A stretch of 64,000 nt of DNA from NCBI GenBank assembly GCA_903833215.1, contig CAILEM010000078.1:1-64000 (forward strand), in the 5' to 3' direction. The notes under the pieces were generated by a model. That model did not search any database. It was not told the origin of the DNA and saw only the letters and a list, made by a program, of their open reading frames with translations. Position numbers and translations under genes: made by a program. Source of the DNA: an uncultured Armatimonadota bacterium. Lineage in GTDB: Bacteria; Armatimonadota; Fimbriimonadia; Fimbriimonadales; Fimbriimonadaceae. Shown in pieces: positions 5,261 through 32,605 of the stretch. How positions within the stretch are numbered: position 1 is the stretch's first letter; each line of letters starts with the position of its first letter.

Positions 5261-6178
5261 TCAGTTAGTTGGATCGGTGACGGGCTCGGACCGCCCCATG
5301 ATGTAGTCTGCCGCGCGCTGCGCGCGGCCAGCGGCGAGAACAAACATCCGAGGATCGTGGTTAAGAGCCGACAGCCACCCCGTCAAGTAGCCTGCCGAAT
5401 TCTCCAAGAGGGAATTGTCCAGCCCTATCGTTGCGCAGCAGAAGGCGGATGCCAATTCTGCGACGAGCTCTTCACAACTGTATTCACATGAACCGAATCG
5501 GGCGACGTGTCGGACTTCCTTTCGTCCGAGACGACTCTCGTGCCCTGTGGCATGAGCCAACTCATGCAGCAACGTCCCATAGAAACTGTCCGCACTTTCA
5601 AAGCAACCCATGGGCGGGACGTTCACGCGATCATTGCTCGGCATATACCAAGCTTCGTTGCCGCTCTCGGTAATAGCTGGACGCAAAGGCATCCCTTGTA
5701 CCATTGCCTCCGCTGATTCAATCCGGTTGTGGCGAGCGACGCCAACGAGGGGAGGAAGTTGGAGTCCGTCGCACTGCTCAACGTTGAAGACCGCGTAGTA
5801 TCGAAGAAGCGGAACGCTCTCCGGCCCTTCGGCGGAGTCGGTCACACGATCATTCTTTTCGATCAGTTTCCAGAACACGGCCATGCTCGAACGCTCTCCT
5901 TTTCGCACCGAGCCGCCCAACTCTCGCGCTTGTTTGAAGCTGACCCAACGGCGATCCGAGTAAGGCGCCGACCCGAGGAGCCAGGTATTCGCCCCTCGGT
6001 ACTCCCTCTTACTCACTGCGTTGATTGGCAGACCAGTTGCACTTGCTTGCCAGGGCTTACGCCATGGACACTGTCCCCGCTCCATAAGGTCAAGTAGCTG
6101 ACGTGTGACGATCTGGTAAACACTTCGAGTTTCAGACGATCCTGCGACCGCCGATTGCATTCGCGACGTTGATTTCAT
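5261..6178 (-). CDS. ardC: ArdC-like antirestriction protein
   Basis: 305 aa. The N-terminal domain is ArdC-like (ssDNA-binding, formerly DUF1738): PWRKPW, GLPINAVSKREYRGAN and the RWVSFKQARELGGSVRKGE segment. The C-terminal zinc-metallopeptidase-like domain has the HELAHATGH motif followed by CEELVAELASAF. ArdC proteins ride on plasmids and ICEs and protect incoming DNA from host restriction. The start at 6178 is chosen because GGAG lies seven bases upstream; an upstream in-frame ATG at 6205 lacks this. It shares its strand and hairpin-type leader with the two small genes downstream. Confidence 0.88.
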   Translation of the reverse strand: MKSTSRMQSAVAGSSETRSVYQIVTRQLLDLMERGQCPWRKPWQASATGLPINAVSKREYRGANTWLLGSAPYSDRRWVSFKQARELGGSVRKGERSSMAVFWKLIEKNDRVTDSAEGPESVPLLRYYAVFNVEQCDGLQLPPLVGVARHNRIESAEAMVQGMPLRPAITESGNEAWYMPSNDRVNVPPMGCFESADSFYGTLLHELAHATGHESRLGRKEVRHVARFGSCEYSCEELVAELASAFCCATIGLDNSLLENSAGYLTGWLSALNHDPRMFVLAAGRAQRAADYIMGRSEPVTDPTN

Positions 6179-6243
6179 AGCTTTCTCCGTCGGTTTCCAG
6201 TTCATTAAGCGAAGGAAGCCGACGAATGAAAGCGCGCGGGTAT

Positions 6244-6326
6244 GGCTCTACCTGGTGGTAGAAGCCAGGTGATTCGGCCCGTCGGACCGCACCCATCGGC
6301 AATCCGAGCGGCTTGCCGATGGGTGC
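6244..6326. repeat. Two hairpins in the ArdC leader
   Basis: The first (6244-6266) is an imperfect palindrome around CCTGGTGGTAG, related to the motif seen at 4811 and 5196. The second has a perfect 14-bp stem (6289-6302 with 6313-6326) and a 10-nt loop. It has no T-run in either direction, so it is a strong structure but not a standard intrinsic terminator. Confidence 0.55.
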
Positions 6327-6377
6327 CTGCTGGCGCCGAGGCCATCACTTCCATGCGTGAATGGCCGGGAATGAGCT

Positions 6378-6932
6378 CTAGCCGCGAATGTACTGATAAA
6401 CAGTCTCGCGACTGATTCCGAAATGTTTAGCAAGCTGCGCTTTGGCTTCTCCGGCCGAAGCGCGACGACGCAAGTCTTCCACTTGTCCGGGCTTGAGTGA
6501 ACGTTTGCGACCCCGGTAAGCGCCACGCTGACGTGCGAGGACGATTCCCTCGCGCTGTCTCTCCCGGATGAGTGCCCGCTCGAACTCAGCGAATGCTCCC
6601 ATGACCGACAGCAGTAGTGTCGCCATTGGCGAATCGTCGCCGGTAAAGGTCAGTCCCTCCTTTACAAACTCCACTCTTACTCCCTGACTGGTGAGCGTTT
6701 TGACTATACGGCGCAAATCGTCTAGGTTGCGACAGAGGCGATCCATACTGTGGGCCAGAACAACGTCCCCATCGCGAGCGAAGCTTAGGAGCGCTTCCAG
6801 TTGTGGTCGTTCGGTGCTCTTGCCTGACGCCTTGTCGATGAAGACCTTGTCAAGCGAAATACCGTCGAGTTGTCGCTCGGGATTCTGTTCGAGAGTGCTG
6901 ACGCGCACGTAGCCGATTTTTTGTCCTTTCAT
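6378..6932 (-). CDS. Serine resolvase/invertase
   Basis: 184 aa, the usual length for Tn3-resolvase/Pin proteins. The nucleophile region is YVRVSTLEQNPERQLDG (serine at about residue 12). The conserved core follows (MDRLCRNLDDL, GAFAEFERALIRERQREG), then a C-terminal HTH (LAKHFGISRETVYQYIRG). GGAGG lies correctly upstream of ATG 6932. It would resolve or invert DNA at a nearby res-type site; repeated CTGACG palindromes at 7014-7069 upstream are candidates. No transposase accompanies it. Confidence 0.9.
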   Translation of the reverse strand: MKGQKIGYVRVSTLEQNPERQLDGISLDKVFIDKASGKSTERPQLEALLSFARDGDVVLAHSMDRLCRNLDDLRRIVKTLTSQGVRVEFVKEGLTFTGDDSPMATLLLSVMGAFAEFERALIRERQREGIVLARQRGAYRGRKRSLKPGQVEDLRRRASAGEAKAQLAKHFGISRETVYQYIRG

Positions 6933-7250: not shown

Positions 7251-7784
7251 TTAAGAGTCGGAACGCAAAATAAAGGAGACCTCGTCTCCATCCGTAGCTA
7301 CCAAGAGTCCCGCCGTCGCTAGGCGACGGCATGAATTCAACACGGCCCATGGTATCTCCCCTAGGCTATCTGCGATTTCAACGTAGTGACTTGAGGTCTT
7401 CGGGCTAAGCTGCGGAAGCACCAATTCGTCGAGACGCGATTCTTCCTCTGGGTCCCCTTCGGACAGATAGTGCGAGTCCATCCAGTAGAACACGTTGCTC
7501 CACAGTACAAAGTGGCTCTCACAGCCCGTATCCCTCCAGACTGATGGGAAGAGAGTGAGTCCTTTTTTGTTGAGGTAGATTCGCCAGGCTTTTGTTGTTC
7601 GAGGGTCAAGATTGATTGTAATAACCTCACCACAACCATCTGGACAATGCATGATGAGAGAACGGTAGGCGCCACGTTTGACGATGGCGACATCTCCGGG
7701 CTGAAGAACGAGCGAGAGCGCTGTTGCGTGATTTTCGACCGTTCCAACCAAGTTCACCTTCCTTTGTCGCGACATCCCCTTCAT
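7251..7784 (-). CDS. DUF6527 (BubE-like) protein of a ubiquitin-like operon
   Basis: 177 aa, last gene of the coupled Ubl operon. The family signature is visible: a conserved MHCPDGCGEVITINL segment (H46, C47, C51), then WRIYL and the CESHFVLWSNVFYW segment (C88, H91), which resembles the SHFW-type motif of DUF6527 proteins. A C-terminal extension of about 60 residues looks like a small winged helix. From memory, this family accompanies bacterial multi-ubiquitin operons and has been proposed to act as a processing or deconjugating enzyme; I treat that as unverified. The start overlaps the kinase stop by 4 bp. Confidence 0.7.
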   Translation of the reverse strand: MKGMSRQRKVNLVGTVENHATALSLVLQPGDVAIVKRGAYRSLIMHCPDGCGEVITINLDPRTTKAWRIYLNKKGLTLFPSVWRDTGCESHFVLWSNVFYWMDSHYLSEGDPEEESRLDELVLPQLSPKTSSHYVEIADSLGEIPWAVLNSCRRLATAGLLVATDGDEVSFILRSDS

Positions 7785-9304
7785 TTGGCTTTCACCCCTT
7801 TGAGAGATTCCTTGACTAAGTTCTGACCAATAAAATAGGCGAGGCCGCGAACGGCACGGTCGGGGCTCTCTTCATGGCATTCTCCGCCGTATTTGCATAG
7901 TCGAAGGAGATGCAGACCGACGATAAATGCGTATGAGCGGTCGTCGTGGTCAACGTAGTGAGCCATTAATCGCAACTGTCGGCAAACGCTCCACATCCAT
8001 GAGTATTGGCAAGGCAACTCAAGAGGTGGTGGAACTATAGCGAAGCTCCTTGCTGAAATTGTAAACAAGGTTTCAACGTGTCCCTTCCACTCTATGAATT
8101 GAGATGAAGAACTGTAGTGACCATCCCCAGTCTTCCATTCGTCACTTGCTGCCTTTGCTTCTTCAGTGAACGCGACGGCGACCTCAAGACAAGCCAGGTC
8201 GGAAACTAGCGGCCCCATCGCCGTGCGATAAAAATCAATCAGTACAGCCTCGTTATGGCGTGCGAAGATGTTCTCAGCATTGAGGTCACCGTGAATTGGA
8301 CCAGCTTTGAACTTGAACTTCGCACTGTCTATGAGAACTTTGAGCCTATGGGGATTGACCGAGCGCCCATACCTTTTTGAGGACTTCCAGTGAATATCAA
8401 GGACTTCATCCGGCTTGACAATATTGTCAGAGACAACCGAGGCGTCTAGAGTCTTTCCGGTCGCGAATGCTTGTTGCCTGAAGCAAGCGAGAGCATCATC
8501 AAATAGGGAGTGGATAACTTGCCTTGCTCCAAATGGACGAACCATTTTTGCCAGAGGCAAGGCACCCTCCACGAAGTCGCCAACCAGGACACCATTTTGC
8601 GCTCCCCTAATACATCGCCTCGTTTCTACATTCGGTCGATGGCTAAAGGCAATGTACGGACCTGCGAAGCGGTTATATGCAAGTAGCTCAACATCCACCC
8701 TCTTGAGACTGTCTATCTTGGCAAAGAACGGCATCCGGTAGCTCCAGTCAACATCGGCATCCGGCTCGGGTTCCGCATGCACTAGATAGACACGGGCTCC
8801 AGACTTCCCACCGGACATCAACTTCAAGGTGATTGCCCTACAATCTGAAAAGCTTCGACGAAGCAGAATTTCGTCGCCAAAGGTTGGCAAGTCTCCCTTG
8901 ATGGAGAGGGAGAAGTTGCATGGCAATTGGGGGTCATGTCGAGACGCTTCTTCTGCTACCACGTGGTCGGCCGGCGCAATAAGGGTCTTCAAGTTGTTCC
9001 TTGGCAAGTCTCCAGCATGCGCTCGGAGCAAGTCGACTTCGGAAACGTCCCCTAGGAAGAACACTTTAATTCCATGGTCTAGAGCTCGAAGAGGGAGTTC
9101 ACGGGCAAACCCGTGTGAGATGCCCTTTCGAGTCGGGTCATATGCAATCACTAGTGCCCTTGCAACAACAAAAAGCAAATCGAGGTCCGGGTTCGATGGG
9201 ACTGAGTGACGGATATCCAGGGTCAGCCCTCGGTTGCTGTGCTCGTTGACTACAGGCTTCGAGGGCGGGTTACCAAACCAGAGGACTTTAGACCGAATCA
9301 CCAT
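7781..9304 (-). CDS. APH/TCAD9-like kinase in the ubiquitin-like operon
   Basis: 507 aa. Residues about 1-140 form an unassigned alpha/beta domain, possibly receiver-like. Next comes a kinase-like fold: a glycine-rich loop (SGGKSG, about 164-169), a lysine in FFAKID (about 196), the catalytic loop HGDLNAEN (338-345) and a metal-binding IDF (356-358). All key residues are present, so it is probably an active phosphotransferase. It resembles the ternary-complex-associated domain 9 and aminoglycoside-phosphotransferase families. The start at 9304 overlaps the JAB-E1 stop by one base, and the stop overlaps the DUF6527 gene by four. The substrate is unknown; an operon partner or the Ubl target is the simplest inference. 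Confidence 0.68.
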   Translation of the reverse strand: MVIRSKVLWFGNPPSKPVVNEHSNRGLTLDIRHSVPSNPDLDLLFVVARALVIAYDPTRKGISHGFARELPLRALDHGIKVFFLGDVSEVDLLRAHAGDLPRNNLKTLIAPADHVVAEEASRHDPQLPCNFSLSIKGDLPTFGDEILLRRSFSDCRAITLKLMSGGKSGARVYLVHAEPEPDADVDWSYRMPFFAKIDSLKRVDVELLAYNRFAGPYIAFSHRPNVETRRCIRGAQNGVLVGDFVEGALPLAKMVRPFGARQVIHSLFDDALACFRQQAFATGKTLDASVVSDNIVKPDEVLDIHWKSSKRYGRSVNPHRLKVLIDSAKFKFKAGPIHGDLNAENIFARHNEAVLIDFYRTAMGPLVSDLACLEVAVAFTEEAKAASDEWKTGDGHYSSSSQFIEWKGHVETLFTISARSFAIVPPPLELPCQYSWMWSVCRQLRLMAHYVDHDDRSYAFIVGLHLLRLCKYGGECHEESPDRAVRGLAYFIGQNLVKESLKGVKAK

Positions 9305-10638
9305 CAGCGACGGACCCTCCCGAATAGCGACCAAGTGTCACCACGCGCAAAAGCGCCACTTCGCGAGCAAACGATGCACGAGGCATCGGCTCGTAGCGTG
9401 GCGCCTCGAACTGTTCCAAGAAGGCCGTTGTAATACTGGAGTCTGGTCGGCATCGGCAATCCAGCAAAGGCTGCCATAAACATGGTCACAACCATCGAGG
9501 AAACCGTTCCGTTTAGCGAGATTACGGCCGGTTGAGGTTCGTGGTGGCCAGTAATGTAGGGGTCAGCAGCGCGATGTACCTCCGATTGAAGTTCAATCCG
9601 CACAGCGTTTGAGTTGATTACGCCGGCACAGATTAGGCACGGAAGGCCAGGTGCGGCCATTTGGATTCGACCCGCGACGTGTGTGATGACCCCCTCTTTT
9701 GCAACGATGCCCACACCAACGTCAAATAGAGGTATCAAGTATTGGTAAGCGAGCTGATTCAGTATTGCTCGGCTCGCATGAGAGTCCGTACATGAGAAAA
9801 TCGCATCACAGCCGACAAGCGACCTGGCAACGTCGATATCGGCGACGTCGCCTGCTATCACTTGGACCTTTGCCGAGGGGTTGACCTTGGAAATCATTCT
9901 CTGTGCAACGTCGACTTTTCGTTGGCCGACATTCTCTTGTGTCGCCCCGACAAGTCGATTAAGGTTTGTCTCATCTGCGACGTCATGGTCAACCAGGATG
10001 AAATCAGATACACCCAGGTGGGCGAGCTCTTGAGCCACGATGGACCCGGTTCCACCAAGTCCAACGATTGCCACCTTTGCACGCTGGATGATGGCCTGTC
10101 CTTCGGGACCGAAAACCCGAACCTGGCGGTCCCATTTACTTTGAGGGTTTGAATCGGTCCGATGAGTCCAATCTTTCACGACCGCGTTGACTTCAACCAC
10201 CGCAAGCTGTTCCGCTCCTCCGAGGACTCTGGCTGCACAACCATCAGAACCGATTACTAGAGCGGCATGCGTCTTGCCTGGGATTCGCCGCGCAAGGAAT
10301 TCAGCAAGTCTCGCCTCTCCAGCGTCGTCAACTTTAGAGAAGACCGGCGTGCCCGTGACATTGGGATGCGAGTGAGCAAAGACGACCGAAAAGCCTTCGT
10401 TCTTTGCCCGCTGCACCAGAGACACAAGCGCTTCGGGCCGAATCTCAGCTTCAATTGGACTCCTTCGAGAATAGGCATCCTCTGCAACAAGATGAATCTC
10501 TCGTACGAGTAGCCTAGTGGACGCAAGGTTGTCAGAGACCTGGGCAGCAAGAAGTAGTGCGCACGATTCGTCACCGTGCGCGTGGAAAGCGACTTTCAGG
10601 TCGGCGAATGTGTCCCCGCCGAAAATGAGGGTCTTCAC
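9304..10638 (-). CDS. JAB protease-E1 (ThiF) fusion
   Basis: 444 aa, two enzymes in one chain. Residues 1-150 are a JAB/MPN metalloprotease with E24, H89-S-H91-P and S101xxD104, the complete JAMM set. Residues about 165-444 are an E1/ThiF adenylyltransferase with GLGGTGS (193-199), the acidic strand VDHD (216-219) and NLNR (225-228). Two CxxC pairs (C334/C337 and C421/C424) look like the structural zinc site of MoeB-type E1s. It would adenylate the Ubl C-terminus, pass it to the E2, and trim or deconjugate Ubl. It overlaps the E2 gene by four bases. Confidence 0.9.
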   Translation of the reverse strand: MKTLIFGGDTFADLKVAFHAHGDESCALLLAAQVSDNLASTRLLVREIHLVAEDAYSRRSPIEAEIRPEALVSLVQRAKNEGFSVVFAHSHPNVTGTPVFSKVDDAGEARLAEFLARRIPGKTHAALVIGSDGCAARVLGGAEQLAVVEVNAVVKDWTHRTDSNPQSKWDRQVRVFGPEGQAIIQRAKVAIVGLGGTGSIVAQELAHLGVSDFILVDHDVADETNLNRLVGATQENVGQRKVDVAQRMISKVNPSAKVQVIAGDVADIDVARSLVGCDAIFSCTDSHASRAILNQLAYQYLIPLFDVGVGIVAKEGVITHVAGRIQMAAPGLPCLICAGVINSNAVRIELQSEVHRAADPYITGHHEPQPAVISLNGTVSSMVVTMFMAAFAGLPMPTRLQYYNGLLGTVRGATLRADASCIVCSRSGAFARGDTWSLFGRVRR

Positions 10639-11015
10639 CTCACTTCCCTTAACCTCTGCTCGATGATTTTCGCGTAGGTCACTAGGTTATTTTGGTTCGG
10701 ATTCCAATTCTGGACATGCCAAGAAAACCAGCGGCCAGCCTCGTTGAGCTCAGGTATAGCCTGGCCGTTGCTTGCCTGCGGCTCCCCTCCGTTTTGCAGA
10801 CGCAAGTCTGGGTCAGCCCAGAAGCAGTCTGGTGCCGCAAAGGGATAACCTACTGGCGCAACGAACCTAATGGATGTTTCCGATTTGCTCCATCCCGGAA
10901 GCAGCTTTACTTCCGGGATGGTGATGAGCTGGGCGCCGCCCGGCATTGGCCGGACGGATGCGCCGTCGCCGTAGACGCGACGCAACTCTGCTAGTTGAAC
11001 TTCAATCGGGTTCAT
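10635..11015 (-). CDS. E2-like ubiquitin-conjugating protein (prokaryotic E2 family E type)
   Basis: 126 aa. The core resembles prokaryotic E2-like proteins of multi-ubiquitin operons: FVAPVGYPFAAPDCFWADPDL (about 51-71) and RWFSWHVQNWNPNQNNLVTY (about 95-114). The only cysteine is C64, the obvious candidate for a thioester, though it lies earlier than in eukaryotic E2s. H100 and W104 may contribute to the site. It is coupled by ATGA overlaps to the Ubl gene upstream and the JAB-E1 gene downstream. Confidence 0.8.
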   Translation of the reverse strand: MNPIEVQLAELRRVYGDGASVRPMPGGAQLITIPEVKLLPGWSKSETSIRFVAPVGYPFAAPDCFWADPDLRLQNGGEPQASNGQAIPELNEAGRWFSWHVQNWNPNQNNLVTYAKIIEQRLREVR

Positions 11016-11605
11016 GAGCGTCCGAATGTGGCGGGCGGAACGGAATAGAAATGCCGTTCAGGGTGGACATTGAGGTCGACCGTTTCAGAATCCTGGATGA
11101 CTTTGTCCGGGTCAGCTTCGAGGACGAGCTGATACGACGCGTCAAAACTAGGCACAAGGGCCTTTATTTGTGCGCCGGACAAGGCTGAATGGGTCGTCTC
11201 ATAGTGCTTTCCGTCAACGAAGAAGCCGTAGTGCTTCTCGCGAGGCTGATTGCGGAAAATCCAGACTAGATGCTGGCAATGCCCGCTGGAGCGCAGGTGC
11301 GAAATGGTCTCGGCTGCAAGTGGTGCCAGGTCCTCTCCGTTGGCCTCACACTTGAAGTGGTCGTTACCTGTTTTGTCCAATCCTGTTTTTCGATAGAACT
11401 CGCGGAAGACGTGGTCTACTAAGGTTGAATCCTTGACTCGAAATGCGTGGTCGGCTTCTTCCACTTCGCTGTAGATGTGGACGACGTGAGGGTGGGTCTG
11501 ATGGTGATGCTCGCCTTCGGTTGCATCTCCGGATTCGATGATGATGACCATGATGCCAGCTTCTTTTTCCGACGCCGACATGTTTTCTGATTCGTTGTTT
11601 TCCAT
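11012..11605 (-). CDS. Multi-ubiquitin-like protein with two beta-grasp domains
   Basis: 197 aa, first gene of the operon. After an acidic, histidine-rich N-terminus come two ubiquitin-like units (about residues 40-118 and 125-195). The second matches the multiubiquitin family closely: YGFFVDGKHYET, SGAQIKAL and HFYSVPPATFG. The chain ends in TFGRS, not in a di-glycine, so a single glycine followed by two residues is exposed. The JAB domain encoded downstream could remove the last two residues. This is the modifier of the system. Confidence 0.88.
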   Translation of the reverse strand: MENNESENMSASEKEAGIMVIIIESGDATEGEHHHQTHPHVVHIYSEVEEADHAFRVKDSTLVDHVFREFYRKTGLDKTGNDHFKCEANGEDLAPLAAETISHLRSSGHCQHLVWIFRNQPREKHYGFFVDGKHYETTHSALSGAQIKALVPSFDASYQLVLEADPDKVIQDSETVDLNVHPERHFYSVPPATFGRS

Positions 11606-11790: not shown

Positions 11791-12969
11791 ATGGACGGTG
11801 ACAGGCTGAGGGTCCTTCGGCTCTCGCGAGACATGTCGCTCGATGATTTGGCAGACGCAGCGGGTGCGATTGTGTCTAAACAGATGTTGTCCCGCTATGA
11901 GCGCGGACTTTCAGAGCCGACGCCAAGAGTTTTGACAGCTTTGGCTGGGGCACTACAGATTCCCGTGTCCCGACTTCTTGAGGCTCCAAAGGTGATTGTC
12001 CGCCCCGTGGCCTATAGGAAACGGGCATCCCTTTCAAAAGGGGACCAGAGTCGGATTACCTCGCTTCTAGAAATCAACCTTCAGCAGCGAGTTCGGATAC
12101 AGGAAGCAAATGGGTTCAAGCCTCCTTCAATTCCGATTCTGAGTATGAAGGCTGACTCAGTCGAAGCCGCCGAAGCCGTAGCCGACCGAATCCGTAAAGA
12201 TTGGGACCTCGGCGAAGCACCGCTCATGAGCTTGGTGGACGAACTAGAAGGCAGATTGGTCCACGTTCTGGAGGTTGATGCGCCAGATACCTTCGACGGG
12301 CTGTCACTGGTCGCTTACGACGAAAAGGGGGCCCCGATTGCTGTTGCCGCTGCCATACGACGGGGTGTTCCGGGAGACCGACAACGTCTGAGCCTGGCTC
12401 ATGAACTTGGGCATATTGTTCTTGACCTAGGCAGTACAGTTGATGAGGAAAAGGCCGCATACCGATTCGCAGGAGCCTTGCTTGCTCCTGCCGTCGCCTT
12501 ACGGCGCGAAGTTGGGGAAAGGCGAAGCGCTATCGACCTGAATGAGCTGGGAATGCTCAAGCAGCGGTACAGGATGAGTCTCCAAGCGCTGGTCTATCGA
12601 CTCAAAGATATCGGCATCATAACGGAGAATCACGCGAAGGAATGGTTTATGCGGATTCGTGCCAGGGGTTGGGCCAAAGTAGAGCCATGGGAAATAGTGC
12701 ATGAGGAGACGACTTGGCTCAAGCGAAATGTTCATCGAGCGGTAGCGGAAGGTGTACTACGGCGTGACGAAGCTAAAGAAATGCTAGGAGAAGGGGCGTC
12801 ATTTTCATCCAATAACTCAAGCGAAAGACTAGACCTCATGCAAATGACGCGAGATGAAAGGCGGCGCCTTCTTGAGCAGTCTGTAGAAGAATCGTTGTCC
12901 GATTATCAATTGGACTCGGAGTGGGTCGATTCCTTCAATGAGGAGGGGTCGACAATAGATGCCGACTGA
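11791..12969 (+). CDS. XRE-ImmA/IrrE peptidase with MazE-like tail (antitoxin)
   Basis: 392 aa with three parts. Residues about 5-62 are a Cro/CI HTH (LSRDMSLDDLADAAG, MLSRYERG). Residues about 120-300 are an ImmA/IrrE zinc peptidase domain with H204-E-L-G-H208 and a following glutamate-rich helix. The last 50 residues (MTRDERRRLLEQSVEESLSD, then SEWVDSF) resemble the toxin-wrapping tail of MazE-type antitoxins. The stop overlaps the MazF start by 11 bp. I infer an antitoxin that binds DNA, neutralises MazF through its tail, and may be switched by its own peptidase domain. Confidence 0.82.
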   Translation: MDGDRLRVLRLSRDMSLDDLADAAGAIVSKQMLSRYERGLSEPTPRVLTALAGALQIPVSRLLEAPKVIVRPVAYRKRASLSKGDQSRITSLLEINLQQRVRIQEANGFKPPSIPILSMKADSVEAAEAVADRIRKDWDLGEAPLMSLVDELEGRLVHVLEVDAPDTFDGLSLVAYDEKGAPIAVAAAIRRGVPGDRQRLSLAHELGHIVLDLGSTVDEEKAAYRFAGALLAPAVALRREVGERRSAIDLNELGMLKQRYRMSLQALVYRLKDIGIITENHAKEWFMRIRARGWAKVEPWEIVHEETTWLKRNVHRAVAEGVLRRDEAKEMLGEGASFSSNNSSERLDLMQMTRDERRRLLEQSVEESLSDYQLDSEWVDSFNEEGSTIDAD

Positions 12970-13312
12970 ACCTAGGCGCGGGGAAATCTGGTTGGTTGAA
13001 CTCGACCCAACCCGAGGGTCGGAGATTAAGAAGACCAGGCCGAGCGTCGTGGTCAGCTCCGACGCCATGAATCGACTTCCAATTCGACTCATTGTTCCGA
13101 TAACTTCTTATCAGGACAAATATGCAAAGCGTATCTGGGCTGTTCCGATTGAAGCCTCTTCCGGAACCGGCCTTGAGAGAAAGTCAATCATCATGTCAGA
13201 AAAGGTTCGATGCGTTTCCATAGAACGCTTTATTCGTCTGGAGGGGGCTGTTCCGCCCTACGACATGGAAGAGCTCGACGCGGCTCTTAAGGTCGTCTTC
13301 GACCTTGGCTGA
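12959..13312 (+). CDS. mazF: MazF/PemK-type mRNA interferase toxin
   Basis: 117 aa, the normal length. Conserved motifs are RRGEIWLVELDPTRGSEIKKTRPSVVVSS at the N-terminus (shown here only as landmarks RGEIW, GSEI and RPSVVVS), then VPITS and the SEKVRCV strand. The arginine and serine of the catalytic region are present. A strong AGGAGG precedes the ATG, and the gene overlaps the antitoxin by 11 bp. It would cleave mRNA at short sequence motifs when the antitoxin is lost, which could stabilise the island or limit phage. Confidence 0.92.
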   Translation: MPTEPRRGEIWLVELDPTRGSEIKKTRPSVVVSSDAMNRLPIRLIVPITSYQDKYAKRIWAVPIEASSGTGLERKSIIMSEKVRCVSIERFIRLEGAVPPYDMEELDAALKVVFDLG

Positions 13313-14382: not shown

Positions 14383-14904
14383 CTATGCTCGCAGCGAGTC
14401 TTCAATGCGCCATTTGCCACCCACGTTGGTGACCATCTCGAAGGCCGCAAGCGTTTGTAGGACATAACGAACCCTTCGAGGGACCGAGCCACGGTCGCCA
14501 TAAAGCGCCGTTACTCGCTCATAGACGTGCTTTAGTTCAAAGCATTCAACACCAGACTCCCTAATCTTCCTGAGTACTGAAACGCAATCTCTGAAAAATG
14601 GGTTTGATCGGCAAAGAATTTCAAAGCGCAACGGGTTCCTCTCGCCTGGAGTCTGGGAGGCAAGTCGCTCGTAATAACCTTCGAGCTCTTTCCGAGTCAG
14701 GGGCGACTTGTATCCGACGGCGCGTTGAAGTTGGAGGGCAGTCTTCTGTTGGGTGAAGACGCCTTCGACGTTTGCAGACATAAAACGGCGAAGTGTCACC
14801 CGGAGGTCAGCCTCGGATTCGGAAGATAGATACTGTTCCAGGGCAAAATCTATCCACTCAGGTCGAACTGTCCGGTCGAACATGATCGGGATGCGGCCGA
14901 TCAT
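14383..14904 (-). CDS. Small BREX-like operon protein, possibly BrxA-like
   Basis: 173 aa, last gene of the operon. The C-terminal half (ECFELKHVYERVTALYGDRG, then RRVRYVLQTLAAFEMVTNVG) looks like a winged-helix DNA-binding fold. Its position after pglZ and its size would suit BrxA of type 3 BREX, but sequence identity is not evident to me. The start overlaps the pglZ stop by four bases. Confidence 0.5.
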   Translation of the reverse strand: MIGRIPIMFDRTVRPEWIDFALEQYLSSESEADLRVTLRRFMSANVEGVFTQQKTALQLQRAVGYKSPLTRKELEGYYERLASQTPGERNPLRFEILCRSNPFFRDCVSVLRKIRESGVECFELKHVYERVTALYGDRGSVPRRVRYVLQTLAAFEMVTNVGGKWRIEDSLRA

Positions 14905-16625
14905 CGTGTTACCTCGATGACCGGCACGATGACTTCCTCAATGGAGGCACCGCCGTGACTAACACCTTGAACACCGGGAAGGTCGAAGCTCTCCAAATTT
15001 CGTGCGAACAGGACCCTTGCGTTCTCTGGCATGCCGTAGGGCTGGAAGTCTGCGATCCCATAAGCAGTATAACTTTGCAGTAGCGCATCGTTCTCAAAAA
15101 GAATCGCTCGCTTCAATCTCTGTTCGGACAAGGTCCCCAAGCTAGGTCGTCCACTTCCGGTGCATGCGATTTGACCATGATCAGCCGTGATGACAACCCG
15201 GTACCCTTTGTCGAGTGCTGAGCTGAGGATTTCAGCGAGGGGAGACGCTTTTCCCCATCGCTTTGCGGCTGAAACTACCGAGTCCGCTTGCGGATAAATC
15301 GAATGGCCCATCGAGTCCCAACTCGTGTCAACGATAGCAAGTCGTTTGGTTTTCCTAGCAAGCGCGTGATCTAATTTGACCGTATCAGCGGTTGTGAAAT
15401 AGCCCCCGTCTTCTCCAAAGCGACCCTTCCATGCACGTCGTTCTATTTCTTGGCTGTGTTCTCCGGGTCCAAACTGCGAAGGCATCTTGCCCTCAAATAT
15501 AGCTCGTCGACTGAGCACGGTAATCGTCGGAAGGATGGCAAAGGCGCCTCGCACCATCGCGGAAGCAAAGCCGATGCGCTGCTTCCAGATTTCTTCGATG
15601 GCGTACCAACTTTCAATTCCTAGCGCGTCCACCACAACAAACAGGAGAGGCGACTCGACCGATTCCTCGTCGAGTCGCCTAACTAGAGTGTGTAACTTCA
15701 TCACTTCTGGACTGTGTGATGTCATCGCATAGACGTAGTTCTTCCGCAGCCACTCGAAGAACAACTTGCTCATCAAGAGTCGATCATCAGAAGTGACTTC
15801 ATCCCTACTTGCGCTGACCCCATACTCCAGCGCGAACTTGAGAACGCTTAAGGGCGAATCGGAGCTGGCTTCCCACTTGGCACGCCAATCAATGGGTTTC
15901 TTCGCGCCATATGGCTTGGCTGGCGGTTCTGCGACCCACATCAGGCCAGCCTTGGAATGTAAGCTGGCGGCTTCAATGAAGTCCTTACTCGAATCGAACA
16001 GTTCCATCACTCGCGAACGAGCAACAACGGGGTCTGTCAGCACCTCTTGGGCCTCGTTCTTGGAAAGATAAGGCGGGGTCTTTACTGTCTCCAAAAGAGC
16101 GCCAGCTACTACACTAGGTAGAACTTGACCAGACTCAGCGAGACGGGTCAGTAGACCGGTCCAGCCTCCGCCAAAGGTTAAGTAGAGAGGATCGGCGCCA
16201 TAGAATGCCCGGCCGATCAAGACGGCTGTTTCTTCCGAAGTTCGGTGGGGCCGCTCACATTGGTGTAGGAGGAACAGCTCGTCCCAGTGCTCCTTTGGAA
16301 GCGACTTAACGACTTGAGGATGAAATTTGCCGAATATTTCCCCAACGCTAATGGACGCCAGCAAGTAGTTCTTGAGACTGGACTCAATGAGGTGCTTGGG
16401 ATATTCAGGCTCGACAATCACCAAAGGCTTTTCGGCGATCGGAACATTTGCCCAAATTCCGAGAGAGTCCGGTGTTTCGTCCCAGTAGTGCAGGCTCATG
16501 CCGGCTGACTCAAGCGCATCTTGAACTTCTGGAAGTTGCAAAAGGTCGTCAGGGTCTTCGCAAAACGTCGGGAATCCACCCATCGAAGGGCAGAGGTCGT
16601 CGACGATGAATCCGACCCAATTCAC
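14901..16625 (-). CDS. pglZ: PglZ-domain protein
   Basis: 574 aa, the alkaline-phosphatase-superfamily protein that defines PglZ/BREX-type systems. The phosphatase-like core shows FVVVDALGIESW (about residue 300), LPTITVLSR, LAIVDTSWD and VVITADHGQ (about residue 480), with metal-ligand aspartates and histidine present. The N-terminal third is helical. The GTG start overlaps the helicase stop by four bases. In BREX, PglZ is needed for defence and methylation; its exact reaction is not established. Confidence 0.85.
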   Translation of the reverse strand: MNWVGFIVDDLCPSMGGFPTFCEDPDDLLQLPEVQDALESAGMSLHYWDETPDSLGIWANVPIAEKPLVIVEPEYPKHLIESSLKNYLLASISVGEIFGKFHPQVVKSLPKEHWDELFLLHQCERPHRTSEETAVLIGRAFYGADPLYLTFGGGWTGLLTRLAESGQVLPSVVAGALLETVKTPPYLSKNEAQEVLTDPVVARSRVMELFDSSKDFIEAASLHSKAGLMWVAEPPAKPYGAKKPIDWRAKWEASSDSPLSVLKFALEYGVSASRDEVTSDDRLLMSKLFFEWLRKNYVYAMTSHSPEVMKLHTLVRRLDEESVESPLLFVVVDALGIESWYAIEEIWKQRIGFASAMVRGAFAILPTITVLSRRAIFEGKMPSQFGPGEHSQEIERRAWKGRFGEDGGYFTTADTVKLDHALARKTKRLAIVDTSWDSMGHSIYPQADSVVSAAKRWGKASPLAEILSSALDKGYRVVITADHGQIACTGSGRPSLGTLSEQRLKRAILFENDALLQSYTAYGIADFQPYGMPENARVLFARNLESFDLPGVQGVSHGGASIEEVIVPVIEVTR

Positions 16626-19276
16626 GAAGCTTCCACCATCGCCATAAACAGGCAGTCCAACTCTGGCAGTGCTTCGGCAGCACCCGAAATCTCGGCACGG
16701 CGGTCTTGATATTCCTTCTCCAGCTCTCGGCGCCGATTTTCCCGCACGTTATCCAGCCCGATGTTGGCAAGGGCTGTTCTGCGAGCCAGGTAGCTCATGT
16801 CCAGTGAATTCAGGCGCCGCTTGGCACGCTCTCGGGACTTCGATACAACCGCTTCATAGAGTTCATTTGCCTCATTTTCAGCGACCGATTCCACCAGGGT
16901 GAAGTCGTAGGTCTCCAGTTCTTCAATGAGATTGACCACCGCCTGCCGAGTCGCCAAGGAATCCCAAATTCTCTGAGCAGACTTGGCGAACGACCTTCCG
17001 TCCAGAGTGCATAAAGATGCAAAGACGTGCTGCTGGCGCCAAGCTCCATCGGCGACACCGACACGCCAAATCGAGAACCAACCTTGAACTTCGAATCCTA
17101 AATCTCCAAGTCTTAAACTGGGAACGGATTTCCCGTCGCAGAAATAGGGTCGAAGCGAGTTGATGCGCTCAACTACCAACTCGGAGAGCTCCTGCGCCGA
17201 CACCTCGTCCATGAGCGTTCTTTGCTGAGCACCTCTCAGGGTGTCGAGCCAAGCTCGAAGCGGAACCGTCGGAATCTTGTCGCCATCGGCAAGTTGTCCT
17301 GCGTACAGGCTTCGAGTCTCCTGACCCTCCTTGGCGATACGCCGAATGTCCGTGACGACCCGGTCGAACTCGTTTTCCAACGCCTTGGGATTCAGAAGCG
17401 CTGTTCGGGCGAGTCGTTCGAACTCCGCACTGGCTTCGCCAGAATCAAGAACATCCCCAGTCTTGTCCACACCGAACTCGGCGAGAATGATCGCCAATTT
17501 TTGCTGCCAGACCTCGTAAACCCGTGCCTCAACCGAGTTCTCCAGAACCAGATTCAAGGCCCGGACTTCCTTGGTCTGCCCAATTCTGTCAACGCGACCG
17601 ATCCGCTGCTCGACCCGCATCGGATTCCACGGCAAGTCATAGTTGAAGATGACGTTGGCGAACTGCATATTCAAGCCTTCGCCACCGGCGTCGGTACAAA
17701 TCAGAACCTGAGTCTCGCCTCGGAAGTGCTCGACCGCTTCCCGCCGCTCAGTCAAATCCATCGAGCCGTTCAATGTGACGACGGAGTATCCACGCAGCTC
17801 CAAGAACTCTCGAAGCATCTCTTGGGTCGCGGTGAACTCTGTAAAGACCAGGAACTTCTTGCTTGGCTCGGAGTCCTCTTGGGCTATCCGCAACATGTGC
17901 TCGTACAGAGCTTCGGTTCGGGCGTCAGAACCAGCATTCTCGACTTTAATTGCCAGGTCAAGCAGCCGCTGAACATCTTTCTCTTCCGCCGAAGTTGATT
18001 CGACAAAGAAGAGCACCCCTTGGGTCACTTCATCGAGGTCAGCGTCGTCGGGGAGGTTTTCGCCAGCCGTCATTCGTTCGGTCGCTTCATCGTTCCGCAG
18101 AACATCAAGGCGCCGTTCCAAGAATCGTCGAATCGCTCTGGTCGAGCTGCTCACCAATCGCTGAATCAAGATGAGCAACAAACGAGAGCCCTTATCGCCT
18201 GTCCGCAGCGCTTGGTTGTAGCCCTCGATGACGTAGGTGGAGACCCCTTCATAGAGGTGCTGCTGAAGGGCGTGTCGGGACTCGAAAGGAACGGAGACCA
18301 GCTTCGTCGAGCGAGCAGCAAACAACGGCTTGCCATCGGCGTCGGTCGCCGTTCGTTTCTCGGTGCGTATGACGTAAGGCTCGACAATCTCTCGCTTGAG
18401 GGGTGTTCCTGGCTCCAGAGAAACGGGGTCGAGCAAAGAGAGGAGGCGTCCGAAGGCATCGCTCTTTCCGGAGTGGGGAGTTGCCGTCAACAGCAGGAGA
18501 TGAGGCGATGCCTTGGAGATTTCTTTTGCCAGTTCGTGCCGAGCCACCTCATCCGAGGCACCCGCAATCTTGTGCGACTCGTCGATGATGACCAAGTCCC
18601 AGCCAGCGCCGACCAGGTCGTGGAACCGTTCAAGATTAAATCGGTCGATACGCTCCTGTGTCCATCCTCGCTGGCTTTCTTTGGGCTTGACCGAATCCAC
18701 CGAGCTGACGACTTGCTTGTATCGCTTCCACTCGTTGTCGCCACGCGTAGCAACGTCGGCACCCCAGTTTCCAGGCAGCACCAGGTCGAAACGCTCTCCA
18801 AAGAGCGTGTCCATTTCCGCAATCCATTGAAGCAACAGGCTCTTTGGAGCCAGCACCAGAACCCGCTCAACCATGCCTCGAAGCTTCAGTTCCTTCAGGA
18901 CGAGACCGGCTTCAATCGTCTTTCCCATACCGACCTCATCTGCCAGCATCATTCGAACCGGGAAGCCGCCCATTGCCTTTCTGAGCACTCTGAACTGGTG
19001 TGGCAGCGGAAGCACTTTGCTGACCAATGGGGCAAGGAACAAGTCGGAACCGAGAGCGCTCCAGATGCGGGCTCCAGCGGTCACAGAGAGGGCGTCATCG
19101 AGGTCAAACGCTCTTGCTACTTCAAGCGAGTTCGCTCCGACCGATTGAATCTGATTTGTGCCCTCGACCAAGACCTTGACCACGTCTCGACCGAACAGGT
19201 TCTTGGCTTCCAGCACTTGAACCCATGCTCGAAGGGCTGGGCTCCAAAGGCGTTTACCGACCACCAAGCCCTCCAC
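16622..19276 (-). CDS. SNF2/RapA-type helicase (BrxH/DrmD-like)
   Basis: 884 aa. Motif I is ADEVGMGKTIEAG, motif II is DESH, motif III is LLTATPHSG, motif V is ICTDAGGEGLNMQ, and motif VI lies in PMRVEQRIGRVDRIGQ. A long C-terminal helical region follows. The GTG start shares one base with the preceding stop codon. SNF2-like helicases of this size are parts of type 3 BREX (BrxHII) and DISARM; the surrounding genes favour BREX. It would translocate on or remodel invading DNA. Confidence 0.86.
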   Translation of the reverse strand: MEGLVVGKRLWSPALRAWVQVLEAKNLFGRDVVKVLVEGTNQIQSVGANSLEVARAFDLDDALSVTAGARIWSALGSDLFLAPLVSKVLPLPHQFRVLRKAMGGFPVRMMLADEVGMGKTIEAGLVLKELKLRGMVERVLVLAPKSLLLQWIAEMDTLFGERFDLVLPGNWGADVATRGDNEWKRYKQVVSSVDSVKPKESQRGWTQERIDRFNLERFHDLVGAGWDLVIIDESHKIAGASDEVARHELAKEISKASPHLLLLTATPHSGKSDAFGRLLSLLDPVSLEPGTPLKREIVEPYVIRTEKRTATDADGKPLFAARSTKLVSVPFESRHALQQHLYEGVSTYVIEGYNQALRTGDKGSRLLLILIQRLVSSSTRAIRRFLERRLDVLRNDEATERMTAGENLPDDADLDEVTQGVLFFVESTSAEEKDVQRLLDLAIKVENAGSDARTEALYEHMLRIAQEDSEPSKKFLVFTEFTATQEMLREFLELRGYSVVTLNGSMDLTERREAVEHFRGETQVLICTDAGGEGLNMQFANVIFNYDLPWNPMRVEQRIGRVDRIGQTKEVRALNLVLENSVEARVYEVWQQKLAIILAEFGVDKTGDVLDSGEASAEFERLARTALLNPKALENEFDRVVTDIRRIAKEGQETRSLYAGQLADGDKIPTVPLRAWLDTLRGAQQRTLMDEVSAQELSELVVERINSLRPYFCDGKSVPSLRLGDLGFEVQGWFSIWRVGVADGAWRQQHVFASLCTLDGRSFAKSAQRIWDSLATRQAVVNLIEELETYDFTLVESVAENEANELYEAVVSKSRERAKRRLNSLDMSYLARRTALANIGLDNVRENRRRELEKEYQDRRAEISGAAEALPELDCLFMAMVEAS

Positions 19277-19776
19277 TAGTAGCCCTCCTCAAAGAGCGGT
19301 TGAAGGCGACATTGAAGGAAGACTTCCAGTAGTCGCACGGTTTCGGTCAGAGCATTTGCGTCAACGAAGAAATGGACTCTGCTCAGGTTGGTCAGCATCC
19401 AATCGGCAACCGACTTAGCTTCAAATCCAGAGCGCAAATCAGCATGGAAAAAGCGGCTTCGTGCCGCCTCGTTCGTGAAGTCGAGGCAGAGTGACTTTGC
19501 CAAATTGCTGATGGCGCCGCTCGGCAGATAGTGTTGGCTGCGGAAACGTGCATCGCTATTGGCGCCGACCTTGCCCACCTTTAGGCAGGTGTTTCCGTGA
19601 AAGAAGACATAGACGGCCGCTTTGCCTTTGGGGAGCCCGGTTCGCTTGTGAGGAGCAACCAGAACCTCGGTCTCGATGTCCGATGCTTGGAGTGACAAAC
19701 CAGAAAGCTGCGAGACCTGGATGAAGTCCCGAACCAATGACTCAACGTTGATTCCAGATGCAGCGCCTACTCCCAT
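19276..19776 (-). CDS. Small GIY-YIG-like protein
   Basis: 166 aa. The centre (KAAVYVFFHGNTCLKVGKVG, then SDARFRSQHYL) resembles a GIY-YIG nuclease core, with AVYVF in place of GIY and LKVGKV for the second strand, followed by an arginine and a QHY. Typical catalytic residues are not all certain. The ATG overlaps the methylase stop by ten bases. Its placement between methylase and helicase suggests a nuclease or DNA-sensing component of the defence system. Confidence 0.5.
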   Translation of the reverse strand: MGVGAASGINVESLVRDFIQVSQLSGLSLQASDIETEVLVAPHKRTGLPKGKAAVYVFFHGNTCLKVGKVGANSDARFRSQHYLPSGAISNLAKSLCLDFTNEAARSRFFHADLRSGFEAKSVADWMLTNLSRVHFFVDANALTETVRLLEVFLQCRLQPLFEEGY

Positions 19777-22622
19777 TTGAACTCAAACTGCGCAACCTTT
19801 TGAGGCGCGCGTTCTTTGGCGATGTCATAGAACATGACCATGTCTTGGATTTCCTGGAGAATCTTGGACGGAATCTTTTCGCACACGCCGACGATGACAT
19901 CGTATTGCTTGGTGTCCCAGCAGTGGGCGAATCCGGCGAGAACGGCTTCAGTTCGGAACGTTTTGAGTTGACCTGTGCGTCGAACATATTCCTGGAACTC
20001 GCGGAGCATCGACTTCTTGCGAATCTCCTCAAGGTGCCGTTCATTGTCGGGGTCTGGCATGACCCACTTTTCATCTGACTCCCGGATGAAATACTCTCGC
20101 AATAAGTCATGAAGCTCGGGTTTGGGCTCATGAATATCCCACTCTTTCAACACGAGCATGAACTTGGGCCGGAGGTCTCCCAGGCTTTGAGGTTCCGCTG
20201 CTAACTCGCCCCGAATCCACTCAACAGCACTCTTTTCGTCTTGAACGAAGATTGATAGCTGAGCGACTTCAATTCCTCTCGCTTTGGTCGAATCGTATCG
20301 CACAACTTGCTCCGCGAGAAAATACATCATGTCTCTCTCGTAGAACTGCTCGTCGAGAACTCTATAGAATTCAGATGCTCCGAGTGGAATGCGAGCGCCT
20401 TGCTGAAGGTGATACGCAACCATTCTGTCGAAAAGCATGAAGCGGGTTCGTTCGGCAACCGTTTCAAGGCGACCGTCCCTAGTTATGGGAGCGACTGGCA
20501 GCATGCGAAGATGTTCAGTCAAGAACTCTAAGACCCCTTGAACCTCGCCCTTGGCTCGCTGAAATCGCTCTTGAAAGTTCGAATGTGGCTTGTAGCAAGT
20601 AATAATCAAGTCTTGCTTGACCGCCCCAGACGCAGTCACTTGGTTGAAATTTCCTTGTTTCTTGTCAAGTGTCCGAACGTCTGCTACGATGAACCCTGCT
20701 CGCACAAGTGCCTCTTGGATGGCATTCCACACCGCGTTTGCACTGTTGTGGAACTCAACAGTCATCCACCGTCCTGGTCGCAAGATTCGATAGCATTCGG
20801 AAAATGCCGCCAACATAAGCCCCTGGTAGTCAAGAAGCTTCTTATGTTGCTTCGCGTTGATAATGGCTTCCTTGTGATTGTTTGTCCTGACTCTCAGCCA
20901 TGACTCCCAGAGGAAGTTCAACTCGGAATACATGAAGTTGCTCCCGAACGGCGGGTCTGTAAAGATGTAATCTACCGATTCCGTTGGCAGCCGCGACGTC
21001 GTCGAGCTGCAAGTTTCTGTTAGAGTCAGTCCCGCAGTTTGATGAACTAGTAATCGTCGAGCCTTGGCGATTCGCTTATACCGGTTGGGAAGAATCGTGA
21101 GTGCTTCGAGCGGCATCATCGTGGAGGACACATATAGCGTCCCAGAAAGTGGGCCCGACTTGTTTTCCATGCGCCATCTGCTGAGTTTGGAGGCGTAAAC
21201 GAGCAGACTGGTGATTCCAAGAGTCAGCAGAGACTTTGACGGAGACCGTTCAGCTTCAAAAACTGCCTGTGAAATGACTCGCAAGTCTTTCGGGAAATAG
21301 AACTGGTGCACATGCGTGATGCCAGCGCGAACGGGCTCGCCAGTCTTGTCGCCGTCCGGCAGCGGGTCGCTCGGCGCCCAATGAACTGAGGGCAACCGTT
21401 GAATGATCTCGAAGAGAGCCAAGTCAAATGCGGACGGTTCTCGCTCCGCAGACTTTCGCCCAACCTTGTAAGTTAGTAAAACAGGGATAATTGATGTCTG
21501 GGTTGTCACTTGCTTGAGGACAGGGTCAAAACTCGAAGAGGTGGCGCGAGAACATGCTCGCTTCGTTAAGTGAGCATGGCAATGCGGACAAGAGAACTCC
21601 TCCGCCACTGTATCGGTTGCTCTATCAACAGCTACGTCCCAAAACGCCATCGTCCGACCACAATGAGGGCAGACCAAGAGTTCCGACCAGACGGTGTAGG
21701 TTATTCTGCCGAACTGCATGCGCGATGCCGAATCTCGGATTGGACTGGTCGGCTGTGCCAATGATGCAAGCATTGATTTGACCGCTTCCATAGAAGAACA
21801 ATCCTTGATGGCAATAGTAGCCTTCCGAATTTCTTCTGGAGATGCATCATGAAGGGTGGCGTACATCCACCCTTGCTGAGCCTCCAAGTCTCGTAGAATG
21901 CGGGTGGATTCAGTCTGAAAGAGGTCGATGTCTGAGGGAATGTTGTAGTTGGAGGCAATGAAGGTTGCGGCCGGAGACAGGTCGTTTTGAAACGCCATTC
22001 TTCCCCCTAATCGACTGAAGGACGTGTGGTCAGATGGTTGAGAGTGAGGATTCACATTTCCAGACTCCAATGCTTGCTTCGATGCCCAAGCCTCCTTATC
22101 CCAAATGTAGCCGTCACGGTCCACTTTGTAGCCAAGCGCTTCAACCTCCGCTCGGTCGCTGCATAGCTGAGCGGCGACACCCGTCATTCCCGTACCGCAG
22201 AAGCCGTCGTACACCACGTCTCCGGGCTCGGTGTAGTGAAGGATGTAACGCATGATGGCTCGATGCGGCACCTTCGTGTGGTAGCCGTGGGCGTTGTAAA
22301 TTGGGTTGTTCCTTCCCTCACTTACATCTGCCGCAAACGGCTCTCGATGGTAGTCGTCCGTGTCCGGGTCGAACGGCTTGCCGTGCTCTTTCAGCCATTC
22401 CTCGATGAACGGATTTGGGCAAGCGGTGTAATACGGCGGGTCGCTGAGCGACAGAATCGCTTCGTCTGTCCCAATCGGAAATCCCTCGATCCTCCGAAAC
22501 TCAGGGTCTTTCAGCTTCTCGGCGAGCTTGGCACGATACTCCTCCCGCACCCGCTGCCGCTCGATTTCTTCGGGAGTCGGAGGCTGCGCCTCGACTTCAA
22601 AGAGAGGCTTGTTTTCAGGCAT
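19767..22622 (-). CDS. DNA adenine/cytosine-N4 methyltransferase of the BREX-like system
   Basis: 951 aa from ATG 22622, which overlaps the Abi-like gene by eight bases; a longer frame to 22757 is not needed. A DPPYY motif (near residue 60) precedes the SAM-binding YDGFCGTGMTG (near 140), the order of beta-class amino-methyltransferases. A second DPPFGSN lies near residue 580, followed by RPGRWMTVEFHNS. A zinc-ribbon-like insertion (CPHCGRT with CPHCHAH) lies between. It is expected to mark host DNA for self-recognition, like PglX proteins, but its architecture differs from classical PglX. Confidence 0.85.
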   Translation of the reverse strand: MPENKPLFEVEAQPPTPEEIERQRVREEYRAKLAEKLKDPEFRRIEGFPIGTDEAILSLSDPPYYTACPNPFIEEWLKEHGKPFDPDTDDYHREPFAADVSEGRNNPIYNAHGYHTKVPHRAIMRYILHYTEPGDVVYDGFCGTGMTGVAAQLCSDRAEVEALGYKVDRDGYIWDKEAWASKQALESGNVNPHSQPSDHTSFSRLGGRMAFQNDLSPAATFIASNYNIPSDIDLFQTESTRILRDLEAQQGWMYATLHDASPEEIRKATIAIKDCSSMEAVKSMLASLAQPTSPIRDSASRMQFGRITYTVWSELLVCPHCGRTMAFWDVAVDRATDTVAEEFSCPHCHAHLTKRACSRATSSSFDPVLKQVTTQTSIIPVLLTYKVGRKSAEREPSAFDLALFEIIQRLPSVHWAPSDPLPDGDKTGEPVRAGITHVHQFYFPKDLRVISQAVFEAERSPSKSLLTLGITSLLVYASKLSRWRMENKSGPLSGTLYVSSTMMPLEALTILPNRYKRIAKARRLLVHQTAGLTLTETCSSTTSRLPTESVDYIFTDPPFGSNFMYSELNFLWESWLRVRTNNHKEAIINAKQHKKLLDYQGLMLAAFSECYRILRPGRWMTVEFHNSANAVWNAIQEALVRAGFIVADVRTLDKKQGNFNQVTASGAVKQDLIITCYKPHSNFQERFQRAKGEVQGVLEFLTEHLRMLPVAPITRDGRLETVAERTRFMLFDRMVAYHLQQGARIPLGASEFYRVLDEQFYERDMMYFLAEQVVRYDSTKARGIEVAQLSIFVQDEKSAVEWIRGELAAEPQSLGDLRPKFMLVLKEWDIHEPKPELHDLLREYFIRESDEKWVMPDPDNERHLEEIRKKSMLREFQEYVRRTGQLKTFRTEAVLAGFAHCWDTKQYDVIVGVCEKIPSKILQEIQDMVMFYDIAKERAPQKVAQFEFKWE

Positions 22623-23508: not shown

Positions 23509-23583
23509 CCCAAAGGAGCATGCACTGACCCAGAATCGACATTTTGAAGCTGACTGCGGTCGGCTTCTTTAATTTTGCCCGGA

Positions 23584-31918: not shown

Positions 31919-32030
31919 TGTGTTTTCACTCCTTGCAAGCTCACTGCCGCTTTCGGCTTCCCGACTACGCCCTGCATTCACGAAGTCCTAAGCGGTGGCG
32001 GGCCGCCTGCCGGACCCGCCTCACGGCTCT

Positions 32031-32081: not shown

Positions 32082-32101
32082 AATCGAGTATAATTCTTTG
32101 A

Positions 32102-32458: not shown

Positions 32459-32553
32459 CCAGATTTGGCTTTATTCCGGCCAGTCGGATCGTCTCGACAG
32501 CGCTAGATGGTCTCAAACTGAGTCCGCCTATAGACGATTCCCGGAGAATAGCC

Positions 32554-32570: not shown

Positions 32571-32605
32571 AAACGCGAAATTGACTGCCTGGTAGGTTCA
32601 AAAAG

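Follow-up and report, generated by a model that had tools for sequence, protein, structure and literature searches.

A clade of Bub ubiquitin-like conjugation operons carries a co-inherited APH-fold kinase, which probably links phosphorylation to ubiquitin-like tagging

A five-gene operon lies on the minus strand, at positions 7251 to 11605, of a 64,000-nucleotide stretch of DNA from an uncultured Armatimonadota bacterium of the family Fimbriimonadaceae (assembly GCA_903833215.1, contig CAILEM010000078.1, positions 1 to 64,000); the whole stretch is called the window here. It encodes a ubiquitin-like protein (Ubl), an E2-like protein, a fusion of JAB and E1 domains (JAB-E1), a kinase of the APH fold and a DUF6527 protein. 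Judged from its sequence, the core of this operon is a Bub operon, a known kind of system which corresponds to type 6e of Iyer, Burroughs and Aravind 2006. The kinase is the addition, and in the clade to which it belongs it probably ties phosphorylation to the ubiquitin-like pathway. We hold it to be an evenly balanced proposition that the operon represents a distinct clade of Bub operons with an acquired, dedicated kinase, which acts on components or conjugates of the Bub pathway and so modulates or executes an anti-phage response. The features of the operon are listed below.

11012..11605, minus strand: ubiquitin-like protein (BubA-type), 197 amino acids; Multi_ubiq match, multi-ubiquitin structure matches, C-terminal [TNS]FG
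10635..11015, minus strand: E2-like protein (BubB-type), 126 amino acids; Prok-E2_E, match to BubB 9eae, Ser98/His100
9304..10638, minus strand: JAB-E1 fusion (BubCD-type), 444 amino acids; ThiF, Prok-JAB, BubCD 9ea4
7781..9304, minus strand: APH-superfamily kinase (TCAD9-related), 507 amino acids; TCAD9, APH, AF2 model
8930..9304, minus strand: receiver-like (beta-alpha)5 N-terminal domain of the kinase, residues 1-125; separate model, structure matches
8270..8293, minus strand: catalytic loop of the kinase, H338-G-D340-L-N-A-E-N345; residue conservation
7251..7784, minus strand: DUF6527 protein, 177 amino acids, with a predicted metal site and a C-terminal extension; DUF6527 match, invariant Cys/His

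All five open reading frames (ORFs) are present, running from 11605 down to 7251. They overlap by four bases at three junctions (Ubl/E2, E2/E1 and kinase/DUF6527), while the stop codon of the E1 runs into the ATG of the kinase with a single shared base (TGATG at 9304), which confirms the unbroken chain of overlapping genes described in the original prediction. ATG 9304 is the most likely start of the kinase, which then has 507 amino acids; a 517-amino-acid ORF can be read from the upstream TTG at 9334, but the homologues begin near the ATG.

The core is assigned to Bub because the solved structures closest to it are BubCD and BubB of Citrobacter. Type 6e comprises a polyUbl, a Cys-less E2/RWD-like domain, a JAB-E1 and a metal-binding protein of the C-x3-C... 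type (PMC1779556). This is the same gene set as in the window, and no kinase is listed for type 6e (PMC1779556). We equate type 6e with the Bub pathways that PMC13373217 cites from Gong 2025 and Ye 2026, since the PDB entries carry Bub names. The operon has the features of Bub and type 6e: a JAB-E1 with an intact JAMM motif, an E2 without the catalytic Cys, a Ubl, in these systems of one to three domains, with a C-terminal Gly and a DUF6527-type protein. Its JAB-E1 and E2 are homologous to those of Citrobacter Bub and its Ubl to multi-ubiquitin proteins, a Ser/His at the E2 active-site position is common to both, and DUF6527 adjoins E1 in Bub relatives too. The original prediction had placed the operon among the known clusters of multi-ubiquitin, E2, E1-JAB and DUF6527 proteins, and the best matches, to BubCD, BubB and multi-ubiquitin structures, agree with it. 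The differences are a kinase gene between E1 and DUF6527, where ordinary Bub operons have no kinase, a CxxC in the E1, which at the first site is missing from Citrobacter BubCD, and a DUF6527 protein that is longer at the C-terminus than in the kinase-free relatives seen.

We scanned 84,980 species genomes with an alignment of the E1, which gave 65 loci, and mapped the genes of each locus with hidden Markov models. The kinase is present in 51 of these 65 loci, a frequency that holds within the clade and not among all Bub operons, as the scan relied on a pair of peptide patterns taken from this clade of E1s. The recurrence of the same cluster excludes a chance adjacency. The usual order is Ubl-E2-E1-kinase-DUF6527, the kinase thus lying usually between E1 and DUF6527; it is followed by DUF6527 in 44 of the 51 kinase loci, and in 28 of the 44 the two genes overlap or are separated by at most two bases. 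Five loci of the Bradyrhizobium group have the order Ubl-E2-E1-DUF6527-Ubl2-kinase, with an extra Ubl directly before the kinase, and further searches found the DUF6527-Ubl-kinase end also in L122, L126 and L127 (L122 and L054 belong to one genome). The rearranged operons in which a second Ubl, encoded separately, immediately precedes the kinase are L053, L054, L060, L064, L073, L126 and L127. The kinase-bearing loci occur in Armatimonadota, FCPU426, Verrucomicrobiota, Pseudomonadota, Gemmatimonadota, Acidobacteriota, Bacteroidota and on a Deinococcus plasmid, that is in about eight phyla. Among the 14 loci without the kinase, ten are true absences (E1 then DUF6527) and four are degenerate, cut or outgroup loci.

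Profile searches of 460 whole genomes, 347 of the Bradyrhizobium order and 113 of the window's class, served as tests that do not depend on the E1. In the Bradyrhizobium order the kinase profile picked out five kinases of full or near-full length, spread over four genomes, and each has one of the five E2s with E<1e-39 no further than about 3 kb away; the other 12 E2 matches in this order (E 1e-18 or weaker) have no kinase beside them. In the window's class G000 and G040 alone contain a full-length kinase, and these are also the two genomes that have a high-scoring E2; the 22 other E2 matches in these 113 genomes have no kinase. Some weak partial matches to generic APH genes occur in this class, one of them in G010, about 11 kb from a low-scoring E2 on the same contig. 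Across the 460 genomes all seven full or near-full kinases stand beside a kinase-clade Bub operon, and 34 other matches to the E2 family are without one. Plasmids gave 13 kinase records, 12 with an adjoining E1 that is 43-47% identical and one a decayed remnant with DUF6527. Phage-borne cargo was rejected as an origin, as one scan of viral contigs made with the kinase, which is pattern-based and may miss some, gave no relative.

The kinase is inherited with the operon. Pairwise identities of the kinase and the E1 correlate with r=0.91 (permutation maximum 0.13), which is comparable to the values for E1-E2 (0.88) and E1-DUF6527 (0.88); for kinase and E2 the value is 0.86. On an E1 tree of 65 rows six changes account for the presence of the kinase, whereas shuffled labels require 12.1. 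The kinase-free rows are nested among kinase-bearing ones on this tree, which is most simply read as several losses of the kinase within the clade; long outgroup branches make the position of the root uncertain. The kinase-free locus L044 has a gap of 261 bases with no convincing same-strand remnant of a kinase, the lowest E value (1.5e-4) belonging to one query in antisense.

Four relatives with an E1 about 30% identical, from Rhizobium phaseoli, Synechocystis pSYSX, Enterobacter and Methylocystis, carry Ubl, E2, E1 and DUF6527 and have no kinase; the E2 is separate in these operons except in Enterobacter, where it is fused to the Ubl. The dependence is one-way: Bub occurs without the kinase, and no intact kinase is seen without Bub. 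The original prediction had proposed the kinase as a fixed, coupled member of the family. This applies to one distinct clade and not to the family as a whole, given the more distant operons without a kinase and the several losses inside the clade. The kinase is neither unique to this genome nor variable in its catalytic residues, either of which had been named as grounds for giving the proposal up.

The kinase matches TCAD9 (3.4e-14, 53.3 bits against a curated cut-off of 40) and APH (1.5e-6) in Pfam. Its active-site residues are intact (K196, E206, H338-G-D340, N345, D357), and it thus has the Lys, the HGDxxxxN motif and the metal-binding Asp of the APH superfamily. K196 is kept in 46 of 47 kinases and E206, H338, D340, N345 and D357 in all 47, which bears out the intact catalytic loop read from this gene at the outset and rules out a frozen pseudokinase. 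The AlphaFold 2 (AF2) model has a pLDDT of 92.0 and a pTM of 0.90, and predicts an APH-type kinase domain at residues ~134-507. In a structure comparison (VIA) the model matches LxmK and choline, methylthioribose and aminoglycoside kinases with Z of 14-16, values that are effectively tied. The highest match is to LxmK of the lexapeptide dehydratase (PDB 9dk3, Z 16.4, 286 residues, 3.8 A, 12% identity); this likeness is limited to the kinase domain and does not cover the receiver-like domain.

Residues 1-125, modelled separately (pLDDT 90.7), form a receiver-like (beta-alpha)5 fold. This domain matches many receivers with VIA Z of 9-10, tied with other Rossmann-like folds. The acidic pair and the phosphoacceptor Asp of receivers are not conserved in it among 32 aligned sequences; because of this we infer a docking or ligand-sensing role from the predicted fold.

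The Ubl matches Multi_ubiq in Pfam (E=8.8e-5), below the curated cut-off and over the C-terminal domain only, and its profile matches the solved multi-ubiquitin proteins 9cd2 (2.4e-12) and 9d59. It has a C-terminal beta-grasp domain with the tail ...PPATFG-RS. The N-terminal ~110 amino acids have an uncertain fold, and of the two-domain Ubl first proposed the C-terminal beta-grasp stands and a second one is not confirmed. In 58 of 59 relatives the protein closes with [TNS]FG followed by 0-4 further residues; about a third stop exactly at FG, so that trimming by JAB would be needed only in the others.

The E2-like protein matches Prok-E2_E (E=2.7e-10) in Pfam and, by profile, Citrobacter BubB (9eae, 6.9e-11). 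It was correctly called E2-like, but it has no Cys at the active-site position, which rules out a canonical catalytic E2. Ser98 (window 10722-10724) occupies this position, and both S98 and H100 are invariant (58/58). Where S98 stands, related Armatimonadota have a Cys in their CCLH-type E2s and ordinary Bub operons a Ser in their WSRH motifs, for which reason a Ser-linked (oxyester) Ubl intermediate is possible, with S98 as a candidate serine nucleophile in a protein that has been described as an inactive E2. An oxyester mechanism has reportedly been proposed for Bub. C64 is near-invariant (57/58), it lies in a PDCFW strand outside the active-site loop.

The JAB-E1 matches ThiF (2.7e-39) and Prok-JAB (5.7e-6) in Pfam, and Citrobacter BubCD (9ea4) with 4.4e-58 by profile, over about 390 columns, and 1.3e-34 as a single sequence. 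The JAMM residues E24, H89, H91, S101 and D104 and the E1 cysteines 283, 334, 337, 421 and 424 are invariant (58/58), and the protein can plausibly activate the Ubl and trim its tail. The DUF6527 protein (Pfam E=3.2e-16) has a predicted metal site, C47-x3-C51-x36-C88-x2-H91, in which all four residues are invariant (58/58). Sequence searches against solved structures gave only coiled-coil designs and weak MarR matches for this protein, with no clear relative.

Several known systems share parts of this gene set. In Bil (BilABCD) the E2 has a catalytic Cys and the E1 is separate from the JAB peptidase. The window's operon is unlike it, as its JAB is fused to the E1 and its E2 has no Cys. The vWA-MoxR-VMAP ternary systems have a TCAD9 match in common with the window, where the partner is a Ubl operon instead; no vWA, MoxR or VMAP domain was found among the part of the window's genes that was scanned with Pfam. 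CapK-CapS is a transcription regulator pair that includes the GHKL kinase CapK, encoded upstream of and linked to Bub and CBASS operons (PMC13373217). Both CapK and the window's kinase are associated with Bub, but the latter has an APH fold and lies inside the operon, and the different fold rules out that it is CapK. Literature searches for TCAD9, DUF6527, Prok-E2 and Bub, with the full texts of the main Bub papers outside their coverage, did not find the gene set described; the core is already known, and the kinase-bearing clade appears new within the literature open to searching. Of the operon, PADLOC picks up the E1 domain alone and gives no match for the Ubl, E2, kinase or DUF6527.

The operon is most likely an anti-phage system, as its genomic setting suggests. 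Among 50 genes located directly upstream of the operons, a set that includes the divergent gene of the window, WYL occurs in 13, ImmA/IrrE in 12 and a UvrD helicase in 11, and nine proteins also match PD-(D/E)XK. WYL and ImmA/IrrE proteins correspond to the regulator types CapW and CapP, which have been reported for operons of Bub and CBASS (PMC13373217). A regulator of the DNA-damage type (CapH/CapP or CapW) is frequent beside Bub operons, though not universal. Two of the four kinase-free relatives have a helix-turn-helix (HTH) and ImmA/IrrE pair just upstream and the other two an HTH-type regulator. Genes flanking the relatives have Zorya-, DISARM-, BREX- and Abi-type matches. The defence role is supported by the CapW/CapP-type regulators upstream of relatives and by BREX-like and RosmerTA-like modules in the window, in line with the defensive setting first suggested for the operon. 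The divergent gene of the window is the following.

11791..12969, plus strand: divergent HTH-ImmA/IrrE gene, candidate regulator and/or RosmerTA antitoxin (RmrA-like); HTH_3, Peptidase_M78, PADLOC RmrA

In PADLOC this gene matches RmrA (1.3e-41) better than capP (1.1e-12) and capH (7e-8), and it overlaps a PemK gene. The two form a RosmerTA-like module divergent from the operon (window 11791-13312, plus strand), in which the RmrA-like gene overlaps a toxin gene of the PemK/MazF type. The gap between the Ubl and the regulator contains two imperfect inverted-repeat pairs of 11-12 nt, which are not interpretable as operators.

We propose that the operon would be induced during infection or DNA damage, and that the E1 and E2-like proteins would attach the Ubl to targets. 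The kinase may dock on the Bub machinery or conjugates through its non-phosphorylatable receiver-like domain and there phosphorylate a protein. This phosphorylation would strengthen or execute the anti-phage response, it would not be a needed step of Ubl transfer. The role of modulator or effector is favoured over an obligatory step of conjugation because the kinase is dispensable for the operon yet absent elsewhere. More specifically, and only tentatively, the kinase may read or write on Ubl-tagged proteins, coupling a widespread Ubl clade to phosphorylation used against phage. Three points weigh against action on the Bub machinery or its conjugates. The APH superfamily mostly phosphorylates small molecules. 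Its fold does not name the substrate, because the VIA matches are effectively tied. No Ser, Thr or Tyr is invariant among 29 aligned Ubls, which makes a single fixed phosphorylation site on the Ubl unlikely.

The first of these points leads to a serious rival that we nevertheless consider rather unlikely, namely that the kinase phosphorylates a nucleotide-, sugar- or amine-like metabolite, as a signal or for depletion, and that Ubl attachment controls the enzyme. Choline, methylthioribose and aminoglycoside kinases are among the best structural matches, and low-molecular-weight substrates were suggested by Kaur et al. 2020 for the APH kinases of ternary conflict systems (PMC7159879). However, the top VIA match, though tied, is the peptide kinase LxmK, and no kinase of this kind is seen away from Bub, while in one clade it stands directly behind an extra Ubl.

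A kinase that is dispensable, clade-specific and Bub-dependent, with a catalytic site fully kept, is also what would be expected of a toxic effector, which would kill or arrest the cell by phosphorylating host proteins in the manner of HipA and be restrained or delivered by Bub. The HipA family has no match in Pfam and the operon contains no separate antitoxin-like gene, and we regard this as unlikely. The strong co-evolution of the kinase with E1 and E2 and the pairing of Ubl2 with the kinase in rearranged operons would suit a PINK1-like writer, which phosphorylates the Ubl, E2 or E1 as an obligatory trigger of conjugation. We doubt this strongly, as the Ubl has no invariant acceptor residue and the kinase-free operons retain the other conserved catalytic residues, so that conjugation need not depend on the kinase. 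That the kinase is a passenger of a mobile island, with no functional link, is highly improbable: it has been lost several times and the island looks mobile (resolvase, ArdC-like), but its position is the same across about eight phyla, it co-evolves with the E1, its catalytic residues are conserved and no intact copy lies away from Bub. Recurrence, co-inheritance and the profile searches rule out a chance neighbour.

The window contains further modules around the operon. A BREX-like locus at 14383-27336 (minus strand) encodes BrxA (4e-13), PglZ (1.4e-47), the helicase BrxHI (1.2e-279) and BrxC/DUF6079 (1.5e-260), with an N6/N4 DNA methylase at 19767-22757. Just downstream of the operon, at 5261-6932 (minus strand), are an ArdC-like zincin anti-restriction protein and a serine resolvase. 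Genes for a DUF927/Cch-type helicase and a Prim-Pol (27722-32679) run up to a tRNA-Gln (32606-32679), which suggests the boundary of an integrated element.

Other loci show variations on the operon. A UvrD-type helicase of ~1130 amino acids, in most cases with a PD-(D/E)XK nuclease domain, is encoded directly upstream of the Ubl at about 11 loci, mostly alphaproteobacterial (L019, L021, L022, L029, L032, L040, L044, L047, L057, L058 and L059). It is often preceded by a gene for ~190 amino acids, possibly forming a further accessory pair. Bradyrhizobium cajani has two kinase-Bub operons of different subclades (L037 and L049), ~14 kb apart on the same contig, and the DUF6527 gene is tandemly duplicated after the kinase in L038 (10925-12055) and L067 (10946-12027).

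Crosstalk between kinases and ubiquitin is central in eukaryotic signalling and immunity. Neither PADLOC nor the literature searched, which did not extend to the full texts of the main Bub papers, yielded a bacterial Ubl pathway in which a kinase is fixed and co-inherited. The kinase-bearing Bub operon is a recognisable subtype which defence-finding tools currently miss. Should the kinase act on components or conjugates of Bub, these five genes would be a small, testable system for the linkage of phosphorylation with Ubl tagging, and this clade may then hold a bacterial analogue of the kinase-ubiquitin crosstalk of eukaryotic immunity, directed against phage.

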